Assembly: GCA_030424975.1 (NCBI GenBank) | Contig: JAUHVY010000001.1 | Span: 245,093 to 309,092, forward strand | Source of the DNA: Alphaproteobacteria bacterium | GTDB taxonomy: Bacteria > Pseudomonadota > Alphaproteobacteria > Micavibrionales > Micavibrionaceae | Direction: 5' to 3' | Length of the DNA: 64,000 nucleotides | Notes under the pieces: model-generated | What the model was told of the DNA's origin: nothing | The model's input: the letters and a program-made list of their open reading frames with translations, nothing else | Databases searched by the model: none | Position numbers and translations under genes: made by a program | Part shown: one piece after another, positions 10,023-61,249 of the stretch | Numbering within the stretch: the stretch's first letter is position 1 | Layout of the letters: each line of letters opens with the position of its first letter

Positions 10023-11423
10023 TTAATTGCTACTGGCAGCAGGAATATCAACGCCGTCTTCTTTATATTGGTTCAATTTATTTCTTAATGTACGTATTGA
10101 GATACCCAAAATATTCGCTGCGTGTGTACGATTTCCAAGGCAATGATCAAGTGTGTTGATAATCATATCACGTTCAACATCGGCAATTGTGCGGCCAATC
10201 ATGCTCTCGACGCTGCCTTGGTTTTGTATGACAGGGGGGCTTTGCGGTGTTTTTCCCGCGCTTGAAACACCGGCCGGATCGGGGGCATTTGCCGGCGCCT
10301 GTGCAGGGGCGCTTGTTGATAAACCCTCACTTTGAATAAAGATGGCGTCAGGTTCTACTTCATCTTCGCTCGACATCAAAATGGCACGATGCATTGTGTT
10401 TTCAAGTTCACGGATGTTACCGCGCCATGCACAAGCCTGTAGTTTTTCAATCGCGGCCTGTGAAACAATTTTCTTTTCAATGCTGTTTGCTTCGGCGTAT
10501 TTATCGGCGAAAAACTGTGATAAACGGGCAATATCAGATGGGCGATCACGTAAAGGCGGTAGGGGGATGTTCACAACATTTAGGCGGAAATAGAGGTCCT
10601 CTCTAAATTCACCTTTTTGAACAGAGGCACCTAAGTCGCGGTTTGATGTTGCGATAATGCGCACATCAACTTTGATTGAATCATTGCTGCCGATACGGGT
10701 GATTTCTTTTTCCTGAATAGCGCGCAAGAATTTTGCCTGCAAAAGCGGGTGCATCTCGCTGACCTCGTCCAGCAGGATTGTGCCCATATGCGCTTCTTCG
10801 AATTTCCCTATGCGGCGTGATGATGCGCCCGTGAAGGCACCTTTTTCATGGCCGAATAATTCCGATTCCAACAGGTTTTCAGGGATGGCAGCGCAATTCA
10901 CCGCAATGAACGGGCCGCTTTTGCGTTTTGATTTATTATGCAGGTAACGTGACATGACCTCTTTACCTGTTCCGGATTCACCGGTGATCATGACGGTCGC
11001 TTCGCTCGGTGCGATTTTATCGGCCAATGCGATGATCGGTTTCATCGACGGGTCGTTGGCGATCATGGAATTGTTTTCTTCGGTGACTGCCTCAAGGACT
11101 GCGGCAATCAGTTCTGCATCCGGCGGTAGGGGGATGTATTCTTTTGCGCCTTCTTGAATGGCTTTCACGGCGGACCGTGCATCGGTGCTGACGCCGCAGG
11201 CAACAACAGGCATGTGAATACGCTCTGTCTTAAGGCGTTCGATAAAATCACCAATTTTCTGTTTGACGTCCACCATCGCAAGGTCGGCGCTTTTTCCGTT
11301 GAGCAGCGCCCCAATGGCCTGATCTATGTCTTCACAATGCGTCACCTTTGCACCACGTTGCAGGGCGATTTTCCCCGCCTGAGAGATGTGTCCGTCCAAG
11401 CCGCCGATAATCATTAAACGCAT
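10023..11423 (-). CDS. flbD: FlbD-like sigma-54-dependent flagellar activator
   Basis: 466 residues in three parts. The N-terminal receiver-like domain (about 1-115) has a central VDV strand but lacks the full acidic pocket, as in FlbD proteins not driven by a standard kinase. The AAA+ domain has Walker A GESGTGKE, Walker B and the sigma-54 contact loop GAFTGA. A Pro/Ala-rich linker leads to a C-terminal Fis-type helix-turn-helix (NRTHAANILGISIRTLRNKL). FlbD activates sigma-54 flagellar genes and in Caulobacter is governed by FliX, whose gene is at 28195. Sigma-54-like sites before four operons here are its likely targets. It is separated from the fliF operon by an oppositely oriented gene. 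Confidence 0.9.
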   Translation of the reverse strand: MRLMIIGGLDGHISQAGKIALQRGAKVTHCEDIDQAIGALLNGKSADLAMVDVKQKIGDFIERLKTERIHMPVVACGVSTDARSAVKAIQEGAKEYIPLPPDAELIAAVLEAVTEENNSMIANDPSMKPIIALADKIAPSEATVMITGESGTGKEVMSRYLHNKSKRKSGPFIAVNCAAIPENLLESELFGHEKGAFTGASSRRIGKFEEAHMGTILLDEVSEMHPLLQAKFLRAIQEKEITRIGSNDSIKVDVRIIATSNRDLGASVQKGEFREDLYFRLNVVNIPLPPLRDRPSDIARLSQFFADKYAEANSIEKKIVSQAAIEKLQACAWRGNIRELENTMHRAILMSSEDEVEPDAIFIQSEGLSTSAPAQAPANAPDPAGVSSAGKTPQSPPVIQNQGSVESMIGRTIADVERDMIINTLDHCLGNRTHAANILGISIRTLRNKLNQYKEDGVDIPAASSN

Positions 11424-12225: not shown

Positions 12226-13083
12226 TTAATCGAAATATTTAATGCGTTCCGATGGCGGTAAAATGGAATTGATCGTCATTTCCAAATTGCGCGGGTTTTC
12301 CTGTTTCAGAACCGACATTACCGTAAACAGTGTCATTTTTTTAGCCTTGACCGTATCGGCTGCGATTTTTTCAAGCTTGGCGGCAAGGGGCGCGAAAACA
12401 ATACTGCTCAAGATAGCACCATAAAATGTCGTCAGAAGAGCAAGCGCCATGTCACCACCCAGTTGGTCTGGGTTATCTGCAAGGTTAGCGAGCATTTTTA
12501 CAAGGCCGACCAATGTCCCGATCAGGCCCATCGCAGGCGCAATTTCAGAGGCGCGTCGCAAAATGCTGGCGGCACGTTTCAGGCGCTCTTCTTCTTCGTC
12601 GATATCCTGTTGCAAGATGCGCTCTATGTCTTCGGGGTTGTATCCGTCAACAGCCAGGCGCAGAGCGTAATTTAAAAACGGTTCGTTTGCCGTTTGGCCT
12701 TCGAAGTTTGAGAGGGTTAAAAGGCCGCGTTTTCGGGCTATATCGGCGAGGTCAACCATCGCGCGCGCCAATGCCTTAATATCCCGTACAGGGCGCATAA
12801 AGGATGAAAAGATAACACCAATAGATTCGCGTAGCTCTTTTCCGGTATAGGCGATGCAGGTCGCGGTAATTGTGCCGAATACAACAATCAAAATGGATGG
12901 CGTGTTAAAAAATCCTGCGTTGCTTTCACCGATGGATATTGCGCCGATGATTAAGACGAAAGACAGGATTATTCCCAAAATGCTGGCAAAATCAAGGGCG
13001 GAGCTTGCGACCGGCACGCGAATAGTCGGAAGCGGGGCTGCTTCCTGTTGTGGCGCTGCTGCTGCGGCTTCATTTTCGGCCAT
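12226..13083 (-). CDS. motA: MotA flagellar stator channel subunit
   Basis: 285 residues. The start is the ATG at 13083, preceded by AAGGA at nine bases; a TTG three codons upstream lies directly on that site. An Ala/Pro/Glu-rich N-terminal tail precedes the four membrane segments of the MotA/PomA family (about 30-50, 60-80, 185-205, 220-240). The large cytoplasmic loop between segments 2 and 3 contacts FliG. The conserved stretch PAMGLIGTLVGLV and the segment-4 proline (VFAPLAAKL) are present. It is the last gene of the fliF operon, as in many Rhodospirillales, while its MotB partners are 25 kb away. Confidence 0.92.
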   Translation of the reverse strand: MAENEAAAAAPQQEAAPLPTIRVPVASSALDFASILGIILSFVLIIGAISIGESNAGFFNTPSILIVVFGTITATCIAYTGKELRESIGVIFSSFMRPVRDIKALARAMVDLADIARKRGLLTLSNFEGQTANEPFLNYALRLAVDGYNPEDIERILQQDIDEEEERLKRAASILRRASEIAPAMGLIGTLVGLVKMLANLADNPDQLGGDMALALLTTFYGAILSSIVFAPLAAKLEKIAADTVKAKKMTLFTVMSVLKQENPRNLEMTINSILPPSERIKYFD

Positions 13084-17065: not shown

Positions 17066-17402
17066 CTATAACCTTTTTTACGCTAGAGCTACCCATAGGT
17101 TTATGGATGCAAGTATTGTACCAGAAAACACATCGAAAGCCGAGCAGGTTAGCGGTTTTTGGCACATCAACCTCTAAGGTACTTTAGTTTTCTTAAACTT
17201 GCAATCGTCAACAGATTTTTTTTCATTCTGGTGAAGGGTAAAAACATAGTTAAAAGAATGGATTATGGTTTTTTTTCGTGTGGATTTATATCTAAAAAAC
17301 TTGACTTTTTGCCATAAAGTATATAGAGTGATAGTAGGGTAGTATGTCTAAAGTATGTGTTTTTTGTGCTTTGGGCTATATAGGAAAGGTTAGGAATGTG
17401 CC
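17066..17402. other. Divergent intergenic region fliF / FlaG-like gene
   Basis: 337 bases between divergent start codons. On the minus side it holds the sigma-54-like site of fliF at 17107-17124. The plus side has GGAAAGGTTAGGAA before the 17403 start. No TTAA-N7-TTAA box or strong sigma-70 promoter was recognised. Confidence 0.6.
17107..17124 (-). promoter_or_regulatory. Sigma-54 (-24/-12) promoter of the fliF operon
   Basis: On the minus strand CTGGTACAATACTTGCAT: GG, ten bases, GC, with TTGCA at -12. The expected start site is near 17095, leaving a leader of about 30 bases. It has one deviation (T for C) from TGGCAC and aligns base for base with the sites before flgI, flgF and flgB. Confidence 0.7.
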
Positions 17403-17986: not shown

Positions 17987-18466
17987 TTATCCTGTAATGT
18001 CAGTGGTGGACTGCCCGCTCTGACTTTGTGAGGTCTGCGGTTGTGTGTTTTGCGAAGGGTTGGGGTTGTTTTTTACGCTTTCCATCAACCCGGCTGCAAT
18101 CTCTTTGTTTATATTGATCAAAATTTCGAGCTTTTTCTTCTCAGGGTTAGATAGTATTTCCATCTCACGTTTGAAGATAAAATTCGCCAGATTTACAATG
18201 TTGCTACGCAGATCATTCGGGCGGTCTTCGTCCTTGTTTTCAAGCGCAGTGTCGTAAAATAATACCCAAATTTGGCGATTGTATTTTAATGTTTCCTCGA
18301 GCAAGTCTTTGGGTTGTTCATCCCACCCGTCAATCAAGGTTTGCATCATACGGTTTGATTTTAATAAAACACGGGCCTCCAGCTCACGTTGATCACCTGC
18401 ATTGGATTGTGCGTTGCTGTCATAGGCATTTGTTGCTTTTGAATACGGATTATTATTATACGACAT
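17987..18466 (-). CDS. flaF: FlaF flagellar biosynthesis regulator
   Basis: 159 residues. A polar Asn/Ser-rich N-terminus is followed by the helical FlaF domain (LLKSNRMMQTLIDGWD, LKYNRQIWVLFYDTALE, NLANFIFKREMEIL). FlaF is needed for flagellin synthesis and secretion in Alphaproteobacteria, opposing the repressor FlbT. It overlaps the flbT 3' end by 11 bases, giving the order flbT-flaF downstream of the flagellin in the same orientation. A Gln/Ser/Thr tail of about 25 residues extends past the domain. Confidence 0.93.
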   Translation of the reverse strand: MSYNNNPYSKATNAYDSNAQSNAGDQRELEARVLLKSNRMMQTLIDGWDEQPKDLLEETLKYNRQIWVLFYDTALENKDEDRPNDLRSNIVNLANFIFKREMEILSNPEKKKLEILININKEIAAGLMESVKNNPNPSQNTQPQTSQSQSGQSTTDITG

Positions 18467-18842
18467 TTTGCAATAACTCCGCTTCGTGTTCGATAAGCTG
18501 TTTTGCCAGTTTCATGGCTTTGTAATATGCGCCATCCATTATTTGCTCATTAATTTGCATGAAGAAAATTGATGATGATGGTGAAGCTTTTTGTACCTCT
18601 TGAATTTCTGTGAAGTAGCGCTCGTGATAATCTTTTGGCGTTCGTGAAATGTACATGCATTGGATCAAAAAGTAGATGCGTTTGCACGGTGTGTCCGTAT
18701 CTTCCTCGCGCATGATGTCTTTTTCGCGAATGATTGGGGCATCGCCCGCAATGTGCAGGCGTGTTCGTTGAGAGCTGTTTGTAATAACAGCTTCGCCAAT
18801 TAATATTTTTTCTTGAGGTTTAAGGTCTATAACCAGAGCCAT
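18456..18842 (-). CDS. flbT: FlbT post-transcriptional flagellin repressor
   Basis: 128 residues with the family start (LVIDLKPQEKILIGEAVITN), a RTRLHIAGDAPIIREKDIM core and a helical end (KAMKLAKQLIEHEAELL). In Caulobacter FlbT binds the 5' leader of flagellin mRNA and promotes its decay when the hook is unfinished. Here the flagellin leader has an inverted repeat at 20760-20778. The Shine-Dalgarno sequence GAAAGGAAG precedes the ATG. Confidence 0.93.
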   Translation of the reverse strand: MALVIDLKPQEKILIGEAVITNSSQRTRLHIAGDAPIIREKDIMREEDTDTPCKRIYFLIQCMYISRTPKDYHERYFTEIQEVQKASPSSSIFFMQINEQIMDGAYYKAMKLAKQLIEHEAELLQNVV

Positions 18843-18978
18843 GGAGTTCTTCCTTTCGTATAGGACGCTTTCTGCGAACGATGTTGTATTAGCCTATCAT
18901 ACAAGATGAATGTAAAGGAAGGCTTAATTAGGGACATAAAAATATAAATATAATTTGCACCTGAGGCGCCGCACATGG

Positions 18979-19053: not shown

Positions 19054-20730
19054 TTAGAATAGTCGTAGAACCGCCTGTTGTGACTGAGAAGCCAATGAAA
19101 GGGATGTAACACCCAATGTTTGACGTGTCTGCAAGGCAAGTAGGTTTGCACCTTCTTCGTTTTGGTCTGCAACTGTCAGGTCGTCCGCACCGGCTTGCAA
19201 TGTGTTAATTGTTTGCTCAGTGAAGTCTTGACGTGTCTGGATGATTGACAGGTTGTTAGCCAAGGTAGAACCGAAGTTACGAACTGATGTCAATGCGTCA
19301 CGTGATTGTGCGGCTGTTAGCTCGATATCTGCAGAGCTTCGGAATGAAGCGGCAGTCAGGCCAAGGCCGTCAGCAGTGAAGTTCACACCAGATGTTGTCA
19401 AACGGCTTGTGTTGTTTTCGTTGAAGAATGTTGTGAGGTCATCACCATTCAACAAGTTAACACCACGATAGCTGGCGTCTGCAACCAAACGGTCAATCTG
19501 TGAACGTACGTTGTTGTAGTCCGCGGCCAAGGAGTCCAAAGCCTGTGTAGAATTGTTGAAACGGAATACAGAGTCGTATGTTTCACCGGCACCGATAGTT
19601 TGCGGGTCAAGATTTCCTGATGTGTCACCAAGACCGATGCTGAATGCACCACCGGCTGCGCTTGAAACAGATAGGGCAACGTTTTGCACGGTGTCAGAAA
19701 TTGACGTGATGCTTAGCTGGCCTGTCGCTGTATCAAAGCTTGCTTCGATGTATTGGTTAACGTTTGTATCCAGGTTGATGGAGTCCACTAGGTCCTGGAA
19801 TGTCGATGTTGCTGTAACTGCGAAGTTACCTGCGCCTGCAAGAGAAGCAGTGTTACCGTTACCAAGATCAAGTGTCAGGTCAAATGTGTCTGCAGCAGCA
19901 AAGCCGGAGAATACAGTGTTACCATCACCATCAATGTATGTACCTGTCAAAAGGTCACCTGAGTCAACAGTGTCACCTGATGCTTCGTACAATGAAATTG
20001 ATGTTGCTGTGCTTCCTGCCACTACTGTTGTTGCAGCAAGTGTCGCACCACCGCGAACTTCGTCTTCGAAGTAGTCACCAAGACCGATAGCCGTGAAGCC
20101 GGTCGTGTCAAAGTTTGTGTTTTCCTGAATGCGGAAACTACGTCCTTCAGAGCTTGAGATAGAGAAGAAGCCATCATCAGTCACGCTTGCTGATACTTCG
20201 CCATTGCGGCTATCTGCAAACTGGTTTGTGATTTTTGCAGCCAATGAATAGGCAGTGTCACCATCATTAAGCGTAATGGTTTCTGTGATTTGGTTCCCAT
20301 CGGCATCTGTTGTGATGATGTCAAAAGAATCACCGTCAGCAAGGCCTGTTGTTACGACAAGATCGCTTTCCTCGCTAAGGTCGACAGAGCCAACGATACG
20401 AGCTTCACCTTCAGAGGCGGCTAATTCGTCACGTGCAGATGAAGCAATGGATTGTGCTGTTTCGACAAGGTTTGTCAAAGCGGTAACACCGTTATCTGCC
20501 TGTTCGATTGTACGAATTGACTGACCGATACCGTCAAGCAAACGGCTAAGGTCGCTCGCGCGGTTATCAAGAGCTTGTGCAGCGAAGAAGTTAGATGGGC
20601 TGTCCAGAGCAGAGTTAACTTTCAAACCGGTAGCAAGACGCAACTGTGTTTTGTCAATTAAGCTTTGTGTGTTCTGGAGAGAGAGTAGATTACTCCGTAG
20701 AGCAGATGTTAAAACGACGTCAGAAGACAT
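19054..20730 (-). CDS. fliC: Flagellin
   Basis: 558 residues, longer than the usual alphaproteobacterial flagellin (about 270-400). Conserved N-terminal (SALRSNLLSLQNTQSLIDKT, RLATGLKVNSALDSP) and C-terminal (SLASQSQQAVLRLF) helices form the filament core. The middle, about residues 110-400, is an insertion containing two flagellin-IN-like repeats (ITETITLNDGDTAYSLAAKI; FQDLVDSINLDTNVNQYIEA) that should form exposed outer domains. It is the only flagellin in the window. GGAAAGGAA precedes the ATG. The promoter has a CtrA-type box and the leader an inverted repeat. Confidence 0.97.
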   Translation of the reverse strand: MSSDVVLTSALRSNLLSLQNTQSLIDKTQLRLATGLKVNSALDSPSNFFAAQALDNRASDLSRLLDGIGQSIRTIEQADNGVTALTNLVETAQSIASSARDELAASEGEARIVGSVDLSEESDLVVTTGLADGDSFDIITTDADGNQITETITLNDGDTAYSLAAKITNQFADSRNGEVSASVTDDGFFSISSSEGRSFRIQENTNFDTTGFTAIGLGDYFEDEVRGGATLAATTVVAGSTATSISLYEASGDTVDSGDLLTGTYIDGDGNTVFSGFAAADTFDLTLDLGNGNTASLAGAGNFAVTATSTFQDLVDSINLDTNVNQYIEASFDTATGQLSITSISDTVQNVALSVSSAAGGAFSIGLGDTSGNLDPQTIGAGETYDSVFRFNNSTQALDSLAADYNNVRSQIDRLVADASYRGVNLLNGDDLTTFFNENNTSRLTTSGVNFTADGLGLTAASFRSSADIELTAAQSRDALTSVRNFGSTLANNLSIIQTRQDFTEQTINTLQAGADDLTVADQNEEGANLLALQTRQTLGVTSLSLASQSQQAVLRLF

Positions 20731-20759
20731 GGTTATATTCCTTTCCTAGGTTTGTAGCA

Positions 20760-20778
20760 CCGAAACATCCTATTTCGG
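20760..20778 (-). promoter_or_regulatory. Inverted repeat in the flagellin mRNA leader
   Basis: CCGAAA, seven bases, TTTCGG: a stem-loop about 30 bases upstream of the start codon and inside the predicted leader. It is a candidate FlbT-responsive element by analogy with Caulobacter; this is inference. Confidence 0.45.
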
Positions 20779-20792
20779 CTTCATACTCCATC

Positions 20793-20822
20793 ATAATAGC
20801 ACAAGATTTAATAAATCGTTAA
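20793..20822 (-). promoter_or_regulatory. Flagellin promoter with CtrA-type box and extended -10
   Basis: On the minus strand TTAACGATTTATTAA (20808-20822) is an exact TTAA-N7-TTAA CtrA box in the -35 position, followed nine bases later by TATTAT inside an extended -10 (TGCTATTAT, 20793-20801). The start site would be near 20786. No sigma-54 element was seen here. Confidence 0.55.
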
Positions 20823-20912: not shown

Positions 20913-20962
20913 AAAAAAAGGGCGCACGCCACCGAAGTCCTTTCGGGTGGGGTCGTGCGCCC
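20913..20962 (-). terminator. Terminator of the flgI-flgE operon
   Basis: On the minus strand GGGCGCACG pairs with CGTGCGCCC, with an inner CCACC/GGTGG extension, followed by TTTTTTT. It lies about 120 bases after the flgE stop. Confidence 0.85.
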
Positions 20963-27862: not shown

Positions 27863-28194
27863 ATTGCTTCTACTTTTGCTCTTATAAACTTTACTTAACT
27901 TTTCTACTTTTACGCTTTGAGGAGGTTTTTAAATCTCTCGCCTATATCCTTTGCGAAAGTCGTGCCAGTTTTTGAAACGTGTTGAAACGCAATGGTTTTT
28001 TTGTATTTTCTAAGGTTTCTGTGATGTTGGCATTGGCCGTTTTAAATAACGGGTAGACGGAATTTTCTGTCGCTAGGCAATTCTTACCGACTTGATCAGG
28101 CATGTTTTGCAGCGTTAGTATATTGTCATCAAAACGTGGTATAGTTTTATCCTGCGATGTTATATATACATAAAGTGCAGCGAATGGAGAGAGC
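27863..28194. other. Divergent intergenic region flgI / fliX
   Basis: 332 bases between divergent starts. On the minus side it carries the sigma-54 site at 27951-27968. The region towards fliX has no recognised promoter. An 84-codon minus-strand frame spans 27942-28196 but is not accepted as a gene. Confidence 0.6.
27951..27968 (-). promoter_or_regulatory. Sigma-54 (-24/-12) promoter of the flgI-flgE operon
   Basis: On the minus strand CTGGCACGACTTTCGCAA: TGGCACG, four bases, TTCGCA; GG and GC are ten bases apart. The predicted start site is near 27939. Confidence 0.8.
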
Positions 28195-28638
28195 ATGAAA
28201 ATCGACAGATCTAAAAATACGGGATCGACATCAAAAACGGGGAAGAGCGGTGGCTCTAAATCGTCTGATGGGGCGGATTTCTCTCAGTTTGTAACGGGCG
28301 GTCCGTCGGAAGCGCCCGCAGCGGCGGCATCGCAATCTATCGCGCAACTTGATGCTCTTTTGGCAGTGCAAGAGGTTGAAGACCCGATGCAAAAGGCGGC
28401 GCGCAAGAAGGTGCGGATGCGTGCTAATACGATCCTCGATAAGCTTGAGGGGATTCGTATGCGTATGCTTGGTGGCGATTTGACCGTAGGTGATATGATC
28501 GATGTGGCTGATGTTGTGGCATCGCATCGTGACAAAATTGATGACCCGCGTTTGAGTGCGATTATGGATGAAATCGACTTGCGTGCGCAGGTCGAGCTTG
28601 CGAAAATTTCTGTTGCGATGGGGAAGGCAACACTATGA
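28195..28638 (+). CDS. fliX: FliX flagellar assembly regulator
   Basis: 147 residues. A Ser/Gly/Lys-rich flexible N-terminus is followed by the FliX helices (AQLDALLAVQEVEDPMQKA, LDKLEGIRMRMLGGDLT, LSAIMDEIDLRAQVELAKI). In Caulobacter FliX binds FlbD and links early flagellar assembly to sigma-54 transcription. flbD is also in this window. It is divergent from the flgI operon and overlaps the converging small gene by six bases. Confidence 0.9.
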   Translation: MKIDRSKNTGSTSKTGKSGGSKSSDGADFSQFVTGGPSEAPAAAASQSIAQLDALLAVQEVEDPMQKAARKKVRMRANTILDKLEGIRMRMLGGDLTVGDMIDVADVVASHRDKIDDPRLSAIMDEIDLRAQVELAKISVAMGKATL

Positions 28639-32831: not shown

Positions 32832-33171
32832 CTTTATATACCTGTTTTTCGTAAAATCAGTGTTGAGGTATTCCTCGGGGATAGGTAATGCGAAGATCGT
32901 GCCAAGTGCGAAAAATGTTGTTTTACAGTCGTTTACTGTCTTGTTGATGTGATTTGGTCGTGGGTGTTTTTGTCCGGCTAATGGTCAAAAATGTCGTTGC
33001 AGGCATTTTTTGCCTTGTGTATAAGTCACTGTTTTTCTGCAATTTTGTATAATGCCTTGTTGATATGTATCTTTGGTGATTAGACCTTGGGCGCGGCATG
33101 CTTTATACTGTCGGTGCAAAAATTGTGTTTCTTTATTTCAAAATCATCGCATTACAACAGACGGATATATT
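32832..33171. other. Divergent intergenic region flgF / fliL
   Basis: 340 bases. It contains the flgF sigma-54 site (32888-32905) and, towards fliL, a perfect TATAAT at 33048-33053 without a clear -35. No other feature was recognised. Confidence 0.6.
32888..32905 (-). promoter_or_regulatory. Sigma-54 (-24/-12) promoter of the flgF-flgH operon
   Basis: On the minus strand TTGGCACGATCTTCGCAT, with GG and GC ten bases apart. It is near-identical in arrangement to the flgI and flgB sites. Confidence 0.82.
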
Positions 33172-44772: not shown

Positions 44773-44789
44773 TGGCACGCTTCCTGCAT
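44772..44789 (+). promoter_or_regulatory. Sigma-54 (-24/-12) promoter of the flgB operon
   Basis: TTGGCACGCTTCCTGCAT, with GG and GC ten bases apart. The predicted start site is near 44801, 31 bases before the flgB ATG. The -24 element overlaps the flhX start region on the other strand. Confidence 0.8.
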
Positions 44790-50459: not shown

Positions 50460-50521
50460 CTTTATAGAACAATAGGATATGACTTGCTGCGGGCTTGGCT
50501 CTGTGCCATGATTTTCGGGCG

Positions 50522-53026
50522 ATGAATACTGATCACTCCGAATTTATTAACAGACACCATAATCGCCGTGCGTCGGTGCAAATGAAAAGCAACCGTAAAA
50601 CGCTGACGGCGGCGGTTGTTGTTTCAATTGCTGCGCTGTATTGCGTGTTGCTGAGCTTTGTTGTGCATATGGCACAGGTTGATCAGGCGACGATCCTTAT
50701 TTCCGTTATGGTGTTTATTACGGCGACGTTGGTGGCGTTTGCGGCGCGCCGTGCGCAATATCTTCAGGCGATGCACGAAGATGAGCTGATCTTGCTGAAG
50801 GAAGTTTTGGAAGGCAGTCGCGGCGGCAGGCTTATTACCGATCATGCCGATCAGGTTCTGTATTATAATCATCGTTTTGTGGAGCTGTGCCATATCGATG
50901 GGGGCGGCGCATCATACGACAAATTGGTTGATATGTTTTCGGGTAATGATAAAGCCAGCGCGCTGTTCAGTACATTGTCTGATCAGGCGCATCGCGGGTT
51001 AACCGATTCTATTGAGCTCTATTGTGATGTCAAAGATTACGAAGGATGGTATCACGTCACCGCACAGCCAGTAACAGGACACGCAGGATATATTCATTGG
51101 CGCATAGATAATGTGACCGATAAATATACGGCCGATCGCGCCGTACATGAAGAGCGTGAGAAACTGATCGATTTTACTGATAATGCGCCCGTTGGGTTCT
51201 TCTCACTCGATCAAACAGGGGCGTTTGTGTTTGCAAATGCGACCTTTGCCAGATGGGTGGGGGAGGATATTAACCATCTGTTATCGCGGGCAAAATTCCA
51301 CACATATCTAAACGATCCGCCGCAAGGTGTTATGCCGTATGATGTCACGGAAAAAGGCGGTGATATTCAAATTGCCGAACTTGAGATGAAAGGTGCGGGC
51401 GGGCGAATGTTCCGTGCATCGATAAACCAAACGATTATGCGCGGTGCAGACGGTAGTATTCGTACGCGGGCTGTTGTTCATGATTTAACATCTGAACGTG
51501 AAATGCGACAGGCATTGAAGGCCTCAGAGGATCGTTTCAAACGTTTCTATGACGAAGCGCCGCTGGGGATTATTCTGGTGAATAAAGACGGGCTGGTCGA
51601 AGATTGTAACAGTGAATTTGCCCGTATGATGGGAAAAAACACGGAAGAGATTGAAAACAAGCACTTTAAGCTCATGATTAGTGAACAACACAGAGAGCAG
51701 GTTTTGGCTGCGCTTGAACAAATGAGCGAGGGGCAGCCAATGGCGGAGTCCATGGAAATCGCCCTTGTGAGTGATAAGAAGGACGCATCGATAAATGCGC
51801 AACTCCATGCACGTCGTTTTTCCGATGGTGGTTTTACAGTGCTCCACTTTATTGATATTACGGAACAAAAATCGCTGGAGGCGCAATTTGTGCAATCACA
51901 AAAAATGCAGGCTGTGGGACAGCTCGCAGGCGGTATTGCACATGACTTCAATAACCTGTTGACCGCTATTATCGGCTTTTGTGATTTGCTCTTATTACGA
52001 CATAAAGCAGGCGATCCGTCCTTTGGCGACATTATGCAGATCAAGCAGAACTCTAATCGTGCGGCCAATCTTGTGCGCCAGCTTTTGGCGTTTTCGCGTC
52101 AGCAAACATTGCGTCAACGGGTGCATGATATCACCGATATCCTGACAGAGCTTTCACATCTTTTACGTCGTCTGATTGGCGCGAATATTGAACTGGAGAT
52201 GATACACGGCAGCAACCTTGGTTTGGTGAAGGTCGATGAAGGGCAAATGGAACAGGTGCTGATTAACCTGGCGGTGAACGCACGTGATGCGATGGATGGC
52301 GGAGGGAAACTGACGATCACCACCGAAAATCATACGAATAAACGCGCACGTAAAGTGATGGAAGAGAAGATGCCGGCCGGGCATTGGATTTTGATTAAGG
52401 TTACGGATACGGGGTGCGGTATTTCAGAAGAGAATATGAGCCGTATTCTTGAGCCGTTCTTCACAACAAAAGGCGTCGGTGAGGGCACTGGTCTTGGCTT
52501 GGCTACAGTGCACGGTATTATCCGTCAGAGCGGCGGTTATCTGGATATCGAAAGCGTTATGGGCAAGGGAACGACCTTTTCTATCTATTTGCCATGTACC
52601 AACGAAGTGGAAGATGACGAGCCAAGTGCGCAACAACAACCGCAAACACGTGATTTGACAGGGACGGAACGTATTTTGTTGGTTGAGGATGAAGCTGCAG
52701 TGCGTAGCTTCTCTGAGCGGGCACTCGTGAATAAAGGGTATGAGGTATTGAGTGCTGAGCACGGGCAGGCGGCTTTGGATGTTTATGAAAAAGAAGGGCA
52801 GAAGCCGATTGATTTGCTCATTACTGATGTTGTGATGCCCGATGTTGACGGGCCGACTTTGGCAAAGAAAATCAGGGAGCATAACCCCGCCATGAAGATT
52901 ATCTTTATGTCAGGTTACACGGAAGATAAGCTGAAGGATCATATGGATGATAATACGTATTTCTTGCCGAAGCCGTTTACATTAAAAGGGCTTGCAGCCA
53001 AGGTGAAAGAGGTTTTGGAGGAGTAA
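50522..53026 (+). CDS. cckA: CckA hybrid sensor histidine kinase
   Basis: 834 residues from the ATG at 50522 (an in-frame ATG at 50582 is an alternative; neither has a strong Shine-Dalgarno). Two membrane helices (about 30-75) precede three PAS-like domains. The DHp helix AGGIAHDFNNLLTAIIGFCD has the phosphorylated His. An ATPase domain (NLAVNARDAM, TDTGCGI, GEGTGLGLATVHGIIRQSGG) and C-terminal receiver (VEDEAAVR, TDVVMPDVDG, KPF) follow. CckA phosphorylates ChpT and thereby CtrA in Alphaproteobacteria. Order and motif wording match CckA closely. Confidence 0.93.
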   Translation: MNTDHSEFINRHHNRRASVQMKSNRKTLTAAVVVSIAALYCVLLSFVVHMAQVDQATILISVMVFITATLVAFAARRAQYLQAMHEDELILLKEVLEGSRGGRLITDHADQVLYYNHRFVELCHIDGGGASYDKLVDMFSGNDKASALFSTLSDQAHRGLTDSIELYCDVKDYEGWYHVTAQPVTGHAGYIHWRIDNVTDKYTADRAVHEEREKLIDFTDNAPVGFFSLDQTGAFVFANATFARWVGEDINHLLSRAKFHTYLNDPPQGVMPYDVTEKGGDIQIAELEMKGAGGRMFRASINQTIMRGADGSIRTRAVVHDLTSEREMRQALKASEDRFKRFYDEAPLGIILVNKDGLVEDCNSEFARMMGKNTEEIENKHFKLMISEQHREQVLAALEQMSEGQPMAESMEIALVSDKKDASINAQLHARRFSDGGFTVLHFIDITEQKSLEAQFVQSQKMQAVGQLAGGIAHDFNNLLTAIIGFCDLLLLRHKAGDPSFGDIMQIKQNSNRAANLVRQLLAFSRQQTLRQRVHDITDILTELSHLLRRLIGANIELEMIHGSNLGLVKVDEGQMEQVLINLAVNARDAMDGGGKLTITTENHTNKRARKVMEEKMPAGHWILIKVTDTGCGISEENMSRILEPFFTTKGVGEGTGLGLATVHGIIRQSGGYLDIESVMGKGTTFSIYLPCTNEVEDDEPSAQQQPQTRDLTGTERILLVEDEAAVRSFSERALVNKGYEVLSAEHGQAALDVYEKEGQKPIDLLITDVVMPDVDGPTLAKKIREHNPAMKIIFMSGYTEDKLKDHMDDNTYFLPKPFTLKGLAAKVKEVLEE

Positions 53027-58952: not shown

Positions 58953-58981
58953 TATATGATTTTTTGTGTGGGGAGGGGGAT

Positions 58982-61249
58982 TTGAAATATAAATCTCTAG
59001 GGCTAAATTTTTTTCCGGCTATTTTAATCCTGATGTTTGGCGTTTGGGCGCTATATCTGACACATGATCACATTCATACGGTTGAAGTCATTCAACATGA
59101 CCTTGAGGAGTTTAATAAAAACTTCCAGGAGGTTAGTGCAGCATATGAACAAGTAGAAATCGGCATAAAAAGATTTGCTGGCTCAAGAACGGAAGAGCAG
59201 AAGAGCGTTGTTTTGAATGCACTAAAAAACTTTTCTGAGAGTTTAACGCTTATAATCCCTTATTTTGATAAAAAAATTAACACAGATAGTCGTTGGAATG
59301 AATTAAAGGCAAATACAGGAATATTGCGTGATCGTTTTTCGTTGAGAAAAAAAGCTCAGGATATTCATGTTGATGGACTTATTATCCACCTAAATAAAAC
59401 AGAAAGTGCTTTAAATTCATTATACCGTCTGCATGTGAGTAAGATAACGCAAGACGGGTTATCCGAGGATATGCGACAAAGACAAGTGTGGGTTTTATTG
59501 TCTGTGCTGTTAATTAGTGTATCCGGATTTGTACTTGTTATTTTGAATATTCATAAGTTGCGTGCTTTATCTATTATGGATGAAGAAAGACGCATGACGC
59601 TTGATGATTTCAAAGCGAAGCTGGCTGCTTTGGAAATGGCGCGTGACGGAATTGTTATTATTGATAAAAACATGAATCTGATGTTTATCAATAAGGCACT
59701 TTGTAAAATAAGTGGCCTAAAAGAAAGTCAGAAAGATAACGTGATCGGTCAGCCATGGGCTAATGCTTTTTCTGCTTCGGATGCTGAGGTTATTGAAGAG
59801 GATATTTTCCCCGAAATTCATGAAAATTTACACTGGATTGGTGAGTTTCCTATATATCGCGAAGATGGATCGGTTTTGCATACTGAGCTATCATTCACCA
59901 AATTGCCCGATGGCGGTATGATCGGAACCGTTCAGGACATTACAAATATTCAGAAAAATGAAAATGAGCGTAAGACACTGGAAGAGCAATTTTTCCAGGC
60001 TCAAAAAATGGAAGCCATAGGTCGTCTGGCCGGTGGTTTCGCTCATGATTTTAATAATATTTTGGCCGCAATGAACGGTTATGCAGAATTTCTGATCGAT
60101 GATTTGGAAGACAACAGTTCCGAGCAAGGCTATGCGAAAAACATTCTGAACGCAGGCTTACAGGCGCGTACGCTTATTGATCAAATGTTGGCATTTTCAC
60201 GCCGCAATGACGGTCGCAAAGAGGCTTTGGATATTATTCCGTCTGTCCATGAAGTCATTTCATTACTCCGTGCAACAATGCCAAAGTCGATAAATCTGAA
60301 TGAGAATTGTGGTGTGAAATCTGCCATGATTGAAGGAAACAGCACACAGCTGTCACAATTAATTATGAATCTATGCGTTAATGCACAGGATGCGATGGAA
60401 AACGATACGGGAACGCTTGATATCTCGGTCAATACGATTACCGCAAGTGATCTTGGCATTGAAGAGTTGCTCCAGGATAAACTTCCAAACGCTGAAGAAA
60501 CGCCGTATATGGGAATAATGGACGTTGCGCCCGCGAAAACACGACTTGTTTTAGGGCATATGTCAAAGAAACATGAATATGTCGCAATTAACGTTAGTGA
60601 TACCGGTACCGGTATTAGTCGCATTGTAATGGAACGCATATTTGAACCGTTCTTTACAACAAAACCTGCTGATAAGGGTACAGGGTTAGGCTTGGCGACG
60701 GTGCATGGTGTTATTATTGGTCACCGCGCCTGTATGGTGATTGATAGTGAACTTGGGAAAGGGACATCGTTTAATCTTTGTTTCCCGTTGGCCGGAAGTG
60801 TTGAAAAAATACAGCCTGAGCATTCTGTGTCGGCGCAAAATGATAACGCAAGCGAAGCTACGCAGCGTCATATTTTACTGGTAGAAGACCAAGAAAACGT
60901 ACGTGATATGACGACGCTGTTATTAAAAAGATTGGGTTATGACGTTACGAGTACGGATTCCGGAATGGCCGGATTAGACGCTATTCGTAAAAAACCTGAT
61001 GAATATGACTTGGTTTTGACAGATCAAAATATGCCTGAAATGACGGGTATTGAGATGGTGCAACAAGCGCATACAGAGTTTCCTGACCTGCCATTTGTCA
61101 TTTTATCAGGTTACAGTCTTGAGAAAATTGAGGATATTATCGTCGATCATGAAGCCATCAAGGCATTTGTTAAAAAGCCGATTACGCGTGATGATTTGAT
61201 GCGTACTCTAAATGATGTCTTTGAAAAACAAAAAAAAGATGCCGCATAG
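58982..61249 (+). CDS. Hybrid sensor histidine kinase
   Basis: 755 residues from a TTG at 58982, chosen because GGAGG lies five bases upstream; a TTG at 58964 is the alternative. A membrane helix near the N-terminus and another at about 165-185 bound a periplasmic sensor of about 130 residues (four-helix type, no Cys). A PAS domain, a DHp helix (AGGFAHDFNNILAAMNGYAE), an ATPase domain (NLCVNAQDAM, GTGLGLATVHG) and a C-terminal receiver (VEDQENVRDM, TDQNMPEMTG) follow. The kinase core resembles CckA-like kinases. It is downstream of a NarL-type regulator, suggesting a two-component pair. Confidence 0.9.
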   Translation: MKYKSLGLNFFPAILILMFGVWALYLTHDHIHTVEVIQHDLEEFNKNFQEVSAAYEQVEIGIKRFAGSRTEEQKSVVLNALKNFSESLTLIIPYFDKKINTDSRWNELKANTGILRDRFSLRKKAQDIHVDGLIIHLNKTESALNSLYRLHVSKITQDGLSEDMRQRQVWVLLSVLLISVSGFVLVILNIHKLRALSIMDEERRMTLDDFKAKLAALEMARDGIVIIDKNMNLMFINKALCKISGLKESQKDNVIGQPWANAFSASDAEVIEEDIFPEIHENLHWIGEFPIYREDGSVLHTELSFTKLPDGGMIGTVQDITNIQKNENERKTLEEQFFQAQKMEAIGRLAGGFAHDFNNILAAMNGYAEFLIDDLEDNSSEQGYAKNILNAGLQARTLIDQMLAFSRRNDGRKEALDIIPSVHEVISLLRATMPKSINLNENCGVKSAMIEGNSTQLSQLIMNLCVNAQDAMENDTGTLDISVNTITASDLGIEELLQDKLPNAEETPYMGIMDVAPAKTRLVLGHMSKKHEYVAINVSDTGTGISRIVMERIFEPFFTTKPADKGTGLGLATVHGVIIGHRACMVIDSELGKGTSFNLCFPLAGSVEKIQPEHSVSAQNDNASEATQRHILLVEDQENVRDMTTLLLKRLGYDVTSTDSGMAGLDAIRKKPDEYDLVLTDQNMPEMTGIEMVQQAHTEFPDLPFVILSGYSLEKIEDIIVDHEAIKAFVKKPITRDDLMRTLNDVFEKQKKDAA

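Follow-up and report, generated by a model that had tools for sequence, protein, structure and literature searches.

In a Micavibrio-like alphaproteobacterium with a genome of 2.43 Mb, the element in front of the sole flagellin gene is in all probability a CtrA-activated sigma-70 promoter, an arrangement that would take the filament off the sigma-54 switch and place the assembly check on the mRNA. Only one Flagellin_N gene was found in the genome, and it lies in the window (the whole stretch of 64,000 nucleotides analysed here); its closest relatives in named records are from Micavibrio sp. and from Alphaproteobacteria MAGs. Direct activation of this gene by CtrA is, as judged from the sequence, very likely. 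We infer the binding and activation by CtrA, the start site and the action of FlbT on the leader; the promoter element and its conservation are observed. What is new is that a CtrA-type promoter is fixed at a sole flagellin, with sigma-54-like basal-body operons beside it, and that the flagellin leader has a covarying hairpin.

The flagellin promoter and its conservation

The features of the flagellin gene and its surroundings are as follows.

20913 to 20962, minus strand: hairpin followed by seven T, the likely terminator of the flgE operon (-28.3 kcal/mol, z -3.84)
20808 to 20822, minus strand: CtrA-type box TTAA-N7-TTAA (TTAACGATTTATTAA) over the -35 region
20793 to 20801, minus strand: extended -10, composed of TGC (20801 to 20799) and TATTAT (20798 to 20793)
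19054 to 20730, minus strand: flagellin gene, 558 amino acids, recognized by NCBIfam flagellin models
18456 to 18842, minus strand: flbT, post-transcriptional flagellin regulator and candidate leader-binding protein (PF07378, E=1.3e-42)
17987 to 18466, minus strand: flaF, flagellin secretion chaperone/regulator (PF07309, E=4.7e-25)

The initial annotation had described an exact TTAA-N7-TTAA at the -35 position of the flagellin promoter, nine bases from an extended -10, and this is what is found on the minus strand. The box begins at -92 from the ATG and is separated from the TGC by ATCTTG, so that the TG extension follows the box after 6 bases and the -10 hexamer after 9; transcription is likely to start near 20786. 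Read as a sigma-70 promoter, the element is TTAACG-18-TATTAT with TG and a poor -35. The hairpin at 20913 to 20962, which a simple terminator scan overlooked because its stem is interrupted, likely ends the upstream flgE operon and isolates the flagellin promoter.

No other such box had been seen in the intergenic regions read, and the exact box indeed occurs only once in the whole window. The accompanying caution, that roughly two matches per 64 kb are to be expected by chance, was sound: dinucleotide shuffling gives 1.86 expected boxes, and the flagellin box by itself is therefore not significant. The composite pattern TTAAC-N6-TTAA-N6..9-TGNTATNNT has a single match in the 2.43-Mb genome, which is at the flagellin gene, and its reversed control has none. 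With a matrix built from 41 flagellin leaders, among them that of the window, the site scores 31.4 bits, as compared to 8.9-19.7 bits for the best site per simulated window (n=20). With a matrix built from distant relatives only, the flagellin site ranked second in the window; the top site, at 12908 on the minus strand, was rejected as a second CtrA promoter, for it falls within a MotA-like coding sequence.

The box is present in the same place in all 44 readable orthologous flagellin leaders of Micavibrio-like relatives (41 tabulated leaders plus L018, L029 and L032), in 20 of them exact over the eight defined bases and in 24 with one mismatch; since it is conserved to this extent, we consider the box functional, as its position and spacing had already suggested to the initial annotation. 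The 44 leaders are not 44 independent events, those of L052-L054 being near-identical, and the unreadable ones belong to loci, among them L017, L047, L057 and L060, that end short of the promoter. Among the 41 tabulated leaders the box lies between -84 and -108 relative to the ATG, and the half-site columns hold 1.1-2.0 bits; of the spacer columns, the C following the first TTAA holds 1.44 bits and another 1.04, the other five at most 0.53. The -10, preceded by the extended TGN, starts exactly 9 bases past the box in 31 of the 41. No CtrA box is present upstream of L050, a second, diverged flagellin copy; the other copy in the same genome, L063, has the full element.

The motA gene served as negative control: an exact box was found in 4 of 26 orthologues from the same relatives, the window's own included. 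The candidate motA (C1:499948) was accordingly rejected as a conserved CtrA target, its box being present in the window's genome but missing from most relatives. The flbT promoter was likewise rejected: its one-mismatch box in the window recurs in just 7 of 26 relatives. A degenerate CtrA box was seen at 18842-18930 on the minus strand, about 85 bases ahead of flbT; similar sites in the relatives are weak.

These data bear on whether the element could be an ordinary constitutive sigma-70 promoter, with the TTAA pairs there by chance or as an A+T-rich upstream element. Its scan score of 9 of 12 with TG (shuffles average 0.9 such sites) would suit such a promoter, as would the chance-level count of exact boxes in the window, but every readable leader preserves the two half-sites 7 bases apart while the spacer varies, the second TTAA has no part in a sigma-70 -35, and in the motA control an exact box is present in only 4 of 26. 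We regard this explanation as improbable.

The CtrA pathway and the sigma-54-like sites

The genome encodes nine OmpR-type regulators. The initial annotation had named the lack of a CtrA gene as a ground against its reading, and the gene was found: against the CtrA equivalog model, which has a cut-off of 350 bits, the product of L096 reaches 410 bits, and the receiver domain of this protein matches the solved CtrA structure 4qpj with E=1.6e-50. On the minus strand, L096 has its start at C1:242694, which is 2.4 kb to the left of the window; the flagellin promoter is about 23 kb away. L095, the best OmpR-family match, was considered for CtrA and rejected in favor of L096. The cckA gene reported from the same window is also there, its score being 701 bits, under the curated cut-off of 1000 bits.

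50495 to 53026, plus strand: CckA, sensor kinase of the CtrA pathway, with CckA models as its best family hits

In addition to CckA, the window encodes a second hybrid kinase, which is VirA/CckA-like, at 58964-61249 on the plus strand.

The region upstream of ctrA (L136, C1 about 242695-242800) is dense in half-sites and contains two exact TTAA-N6-TTAA, which suggests autoregulation of ctrA; in Caulobacter the CtrA-activated P2 promoter of ctrA has the TTAA-N6-TTAA spacing (PMC11264516). Genome-wide there are 47 TTAA-N7-TTAA sites, of which 30 lie outside predicted genes, as against 26 of 109 sites with other spacings (Fisher p=2.6e-6), the latter counted in a 464-kb sample. This sample contains one N7 site where about 9 were expected from the genome rate, and hence only the other spacings were taken from it. 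One of the N7 sites, an exact CtrA box with TGCTATTCT, precedes the gene of a 60-amino-acid Flp pilin (L239, C1:1293992), with 12 bases from box to -10 instead of the 9 at the flagellin; pilA is a classical CtrA target (PMC11264516).

In Caulobacter, CtrA sites near -35 activate (PMC6180460; PMC11264516). The box could nevertheless be one at which CtrA acts as a repressor, or be read by another TTAA-reading regulator, activation coming from elsewhere. Caulobacter CtrA does repress some promoters (PMC6180460), and the genome has nine OmpR-type regulators. Yet the reported repressing sites overlap the -10 and the activating ones lie near -35 (PMC6180460), and the CtrA consensus is matched by the N7 spacer and by the C that follows the first TTAA, which leaves this explanation a small chance, slightly smaller than that of the constitutive promoter.

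The initial annotation had set the CtrA-like site of the flagellin against sigma-54 sites at four rod/ring operons. These sites are indeed found, before fliF, flgI, flgF and flgB, each with one mismatch in a scan in which GG and GC were held fixed; none is found at the flagellin. Two proteins of the sigma-54 switch are encoded in the window.

17108 to 17123, minus strand: sigma-54-like site TGGTACAATACTTGCA before fliF, at -58
27952 to 27967, minus strand: sigma-54-like site TGGCACGACTTTCGCA before flgI, at -105
32889 to 32904, minus strand: sigma-54-like site TGGCACGATCTTCGCA before flgF, at -73
44773 to 44788, plus strand: sigma-54-like site TGGCACGCTTCCTGCA before flgB-flgC-fliE, at -59
10023 to 11423, minus strand: FlbD-like sigma-54 activator (FlbD model: 702.8 bits, with a cut-off of 750)
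28195 to 28638, plus strand: FliX (PF10768, E=5.6e-36)

RpoN is encoded in the genome. For FliA (sigma-28) the genome has no match above cut-off; of two matches below it, the stronger lies in a 680-amino-acid frame. Within 250 bp upstream of the flagellin there is no TGGCAC-N5-TTGC site with two or fewer mismatches. That the true flagellin promoter is a sigma-54 or sigma-28 promoter elsewhere in the gap or further upstream is therefore very improbable, even though RpoN and FlbD are encoded and TGGCAC-N5-TTGC stands at many flagellins elsewhere in the class, since those 250 bp lack such a site, FliA is nowhere above cut-off and a likely terminator lies between flgE and the flagellin.

The wider class was sampled with 30 flagellin loci from FlbT genomes, 29 of them readable, some with an uncertain start codon. 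A CtrA box is absent from all 29, and a sigma-54 site is present in about a dozen. By eye, the diverged extra flagellins L065, L068, L070 and L074 of Micavibrio-like genomes have sigma-54-like promoter sequences, unlike the main flagellin.

The suggestion that the usual hierarchy is inverted or flattened has to be divided. The early flagellar genes checked, a class that CtrA usually targets, have no clear box here: in the window none with one mismatch or fewer precedes flhA, flbD, fliX, fliL or fliM, and thus CtrA and sigma-54 have not been exchanged along the whole cascade; flhA, flbD, fliX and fliL have neither type of site, and fliM has a two-mismatch sigma-54-like site alone. The filament gene either departed from the sigma-54/FlbD class or was never part of it, and the hierarchy is flattened for this gene rather than inverted.

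We propose that CckA, via a phosphotransfer protein, would phosphorylate CtrA, and that CtrA~P would bind TTAA-N7-TTAA over the -35 and recruit sigma-70 polymerase to the extended -10 with its poor -35, so that the filament gene would be on when CtrA~P is high. The gene would thereby stand outside the sigma-54/FlbD/FliX assembly switch, by which the operons for MS-ring, rod, ring and hook seem to be driven. As filament transcription would then not be gated by completion of the basal body, assembly is probably checked at the mRNA level. An FlbT-type step would gate flagellin translation via a leader hairpin and the conserved motif CCTAGGAAAGGA over the ribosome-binding site.

The flagellin leader and FlbT

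The flagellin mRNA leader is roughly 55 nt long and contains two elements, of which CCTAGGAAAGGA forms its end, ahead of the ATG.

20759 to 20779, minus strand: leader hairpin GCCGAAAUA-GGA-UGUUUCGGU with an AGGA loop, which folds in the window's leader (z -1.86)
20739 to 20750, minus strand: leader motif CCTAGGAAAGGA containing the ribosome-binding site, little changed in nearly all orthologous leaders

Leaders of the window's genus have one hairpin and those of other genera usually two, with an AGGA or AGUA loop. In the first hairpin of the family type 84.3% of cells pair, versus 51.0% after shuffling. For covariation the hairpin scores 0.816, versus 0.215 +/- 0.035 in shuffled alignments, of which 0 of 500 reach the observed value, and with the partner slid the score is at most 0.233; a further analysis gave a consistent result. 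The hairpin windows for this analysis were picked by position and centered on the loop, not by pairing, and the set comprised 27 leaders, the window's leader, of the one-hairpin type, lying outside these 27. Rfam holds no known family that matches the flagellin leader.

Of the 29 class flagellin leaders one has a similar hairpin. Many of the class leaders (L198-L227) have a CC(T)AGAAnGGA-like motif just ahead of the ATG, and a GGGC-AAAAY-GCCC hairpin recurs in several of them; these motifs may be a wider FlbT leader signal.

Caulobacter FlbT binds the flagellin 5' leader (PMC3930126), and a review lists the FlbT RNA motif as unresolved (PMC4347634). The flbT gene adjoins the flagellin gene here and in the relatives, and this adjacency, together with the work on Caulobacter and Brucella, suggests by analogy that FlbT may recognize the flagellin leader. 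The first 45 residues of FlbT (by eye) and the strand order of its AlphaFold model resemble CsrA, the AGGA hairpin loops are CsrA-like, and csrA itself has no match in the genome. Homology of FlbT to CsrA found no support in profile or fold comparisons and is not claimed here: hmmsearch against the PDB came back empty, hhalign gave at most 6% probability, and Foldseek returned no CsrA chain with the whole model or with the N-terminal domain. In the fold alignment of FlbT (VIA-align) the rows are nearly confined to the helical C-terminal part, and the match to the flagellar export chaperone 1orj (Z 6.0) is at the noise level of helical bundles.

Comparison with known systems

The initial annotation started from the view that in Caulobacter the flagellins are late sigma-54 genes. 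This is too simple, since the minor flagellin gene fljM is a direct target of activation by CtrA (PMC4432633) and the regulatory flagellin gene fljJ is promoted by it (PMC7591256). The likeness to fljM and fljJ is that of a flagellin gene activated by CtrA. The major Caulobacter flagellin, fljK, is under FlbD/sigma-54, whereas here the sole flagellin has the CtrA-type promoter, and this arrangement is fixed across the Micavibrio-like relatives. The Caulobacter CtrA promoters of pilA, fliQ and fliL share with it the TTAA-N7-TTAA-like site over the -35 (PMC11264516), but they serve pilus and early flagellar genes, and here the box stands before a late structural gene.

CtrA control of flagellar genes is also known from the Rhodobacter sphaeroides fla2 and Phaeobacter regulons (PMC6180460; PMC12363192), and Phaeobacter mutants that lack the CtrA phosphorelay show a 64-fold drop in fliC (PMC12363192). 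Different from both, among the genes checked here only the flagellin has a well-placed exact box, and it stands beside four operons with sigma-54-like sites. The FlbT systems of Caulobacter and Brucella resemble ours in having flbT and flaF beside the flagellin gene and a structured leader of about 55 nt; the difference is that a covarying hairpin with an AGGA/AGUA loop is defined here. In the literature searched, we found no publications joining Micavibrio and CtrA.

A wider proposal, which we offer tentatively and hold to have somewhat less than an even chance, is that in Micavibrio-like bacteria as a group the filament is out of the sigma-54 hierarchy and under CtrA with the checkpoint on the mRNA, and that the AG(G/U)A-loop hairpin together with CCTAGGAAAGGA is a new RNA element, the FlbT operator. 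The covarying hairpin is in any case a concrete candidate for the RNA target of FlbT. The case illustrates how an order-level group can rewire its flagellar hierarchy: the filament, which is the most abundant part and the last to be assembled, would be tied directly to a cell-cycle regulator and not to completion of the basal body. Some Micavibrio-type bacteria are predatory. In bacteria of this type swimming would be linked to the state of the cell cycle.
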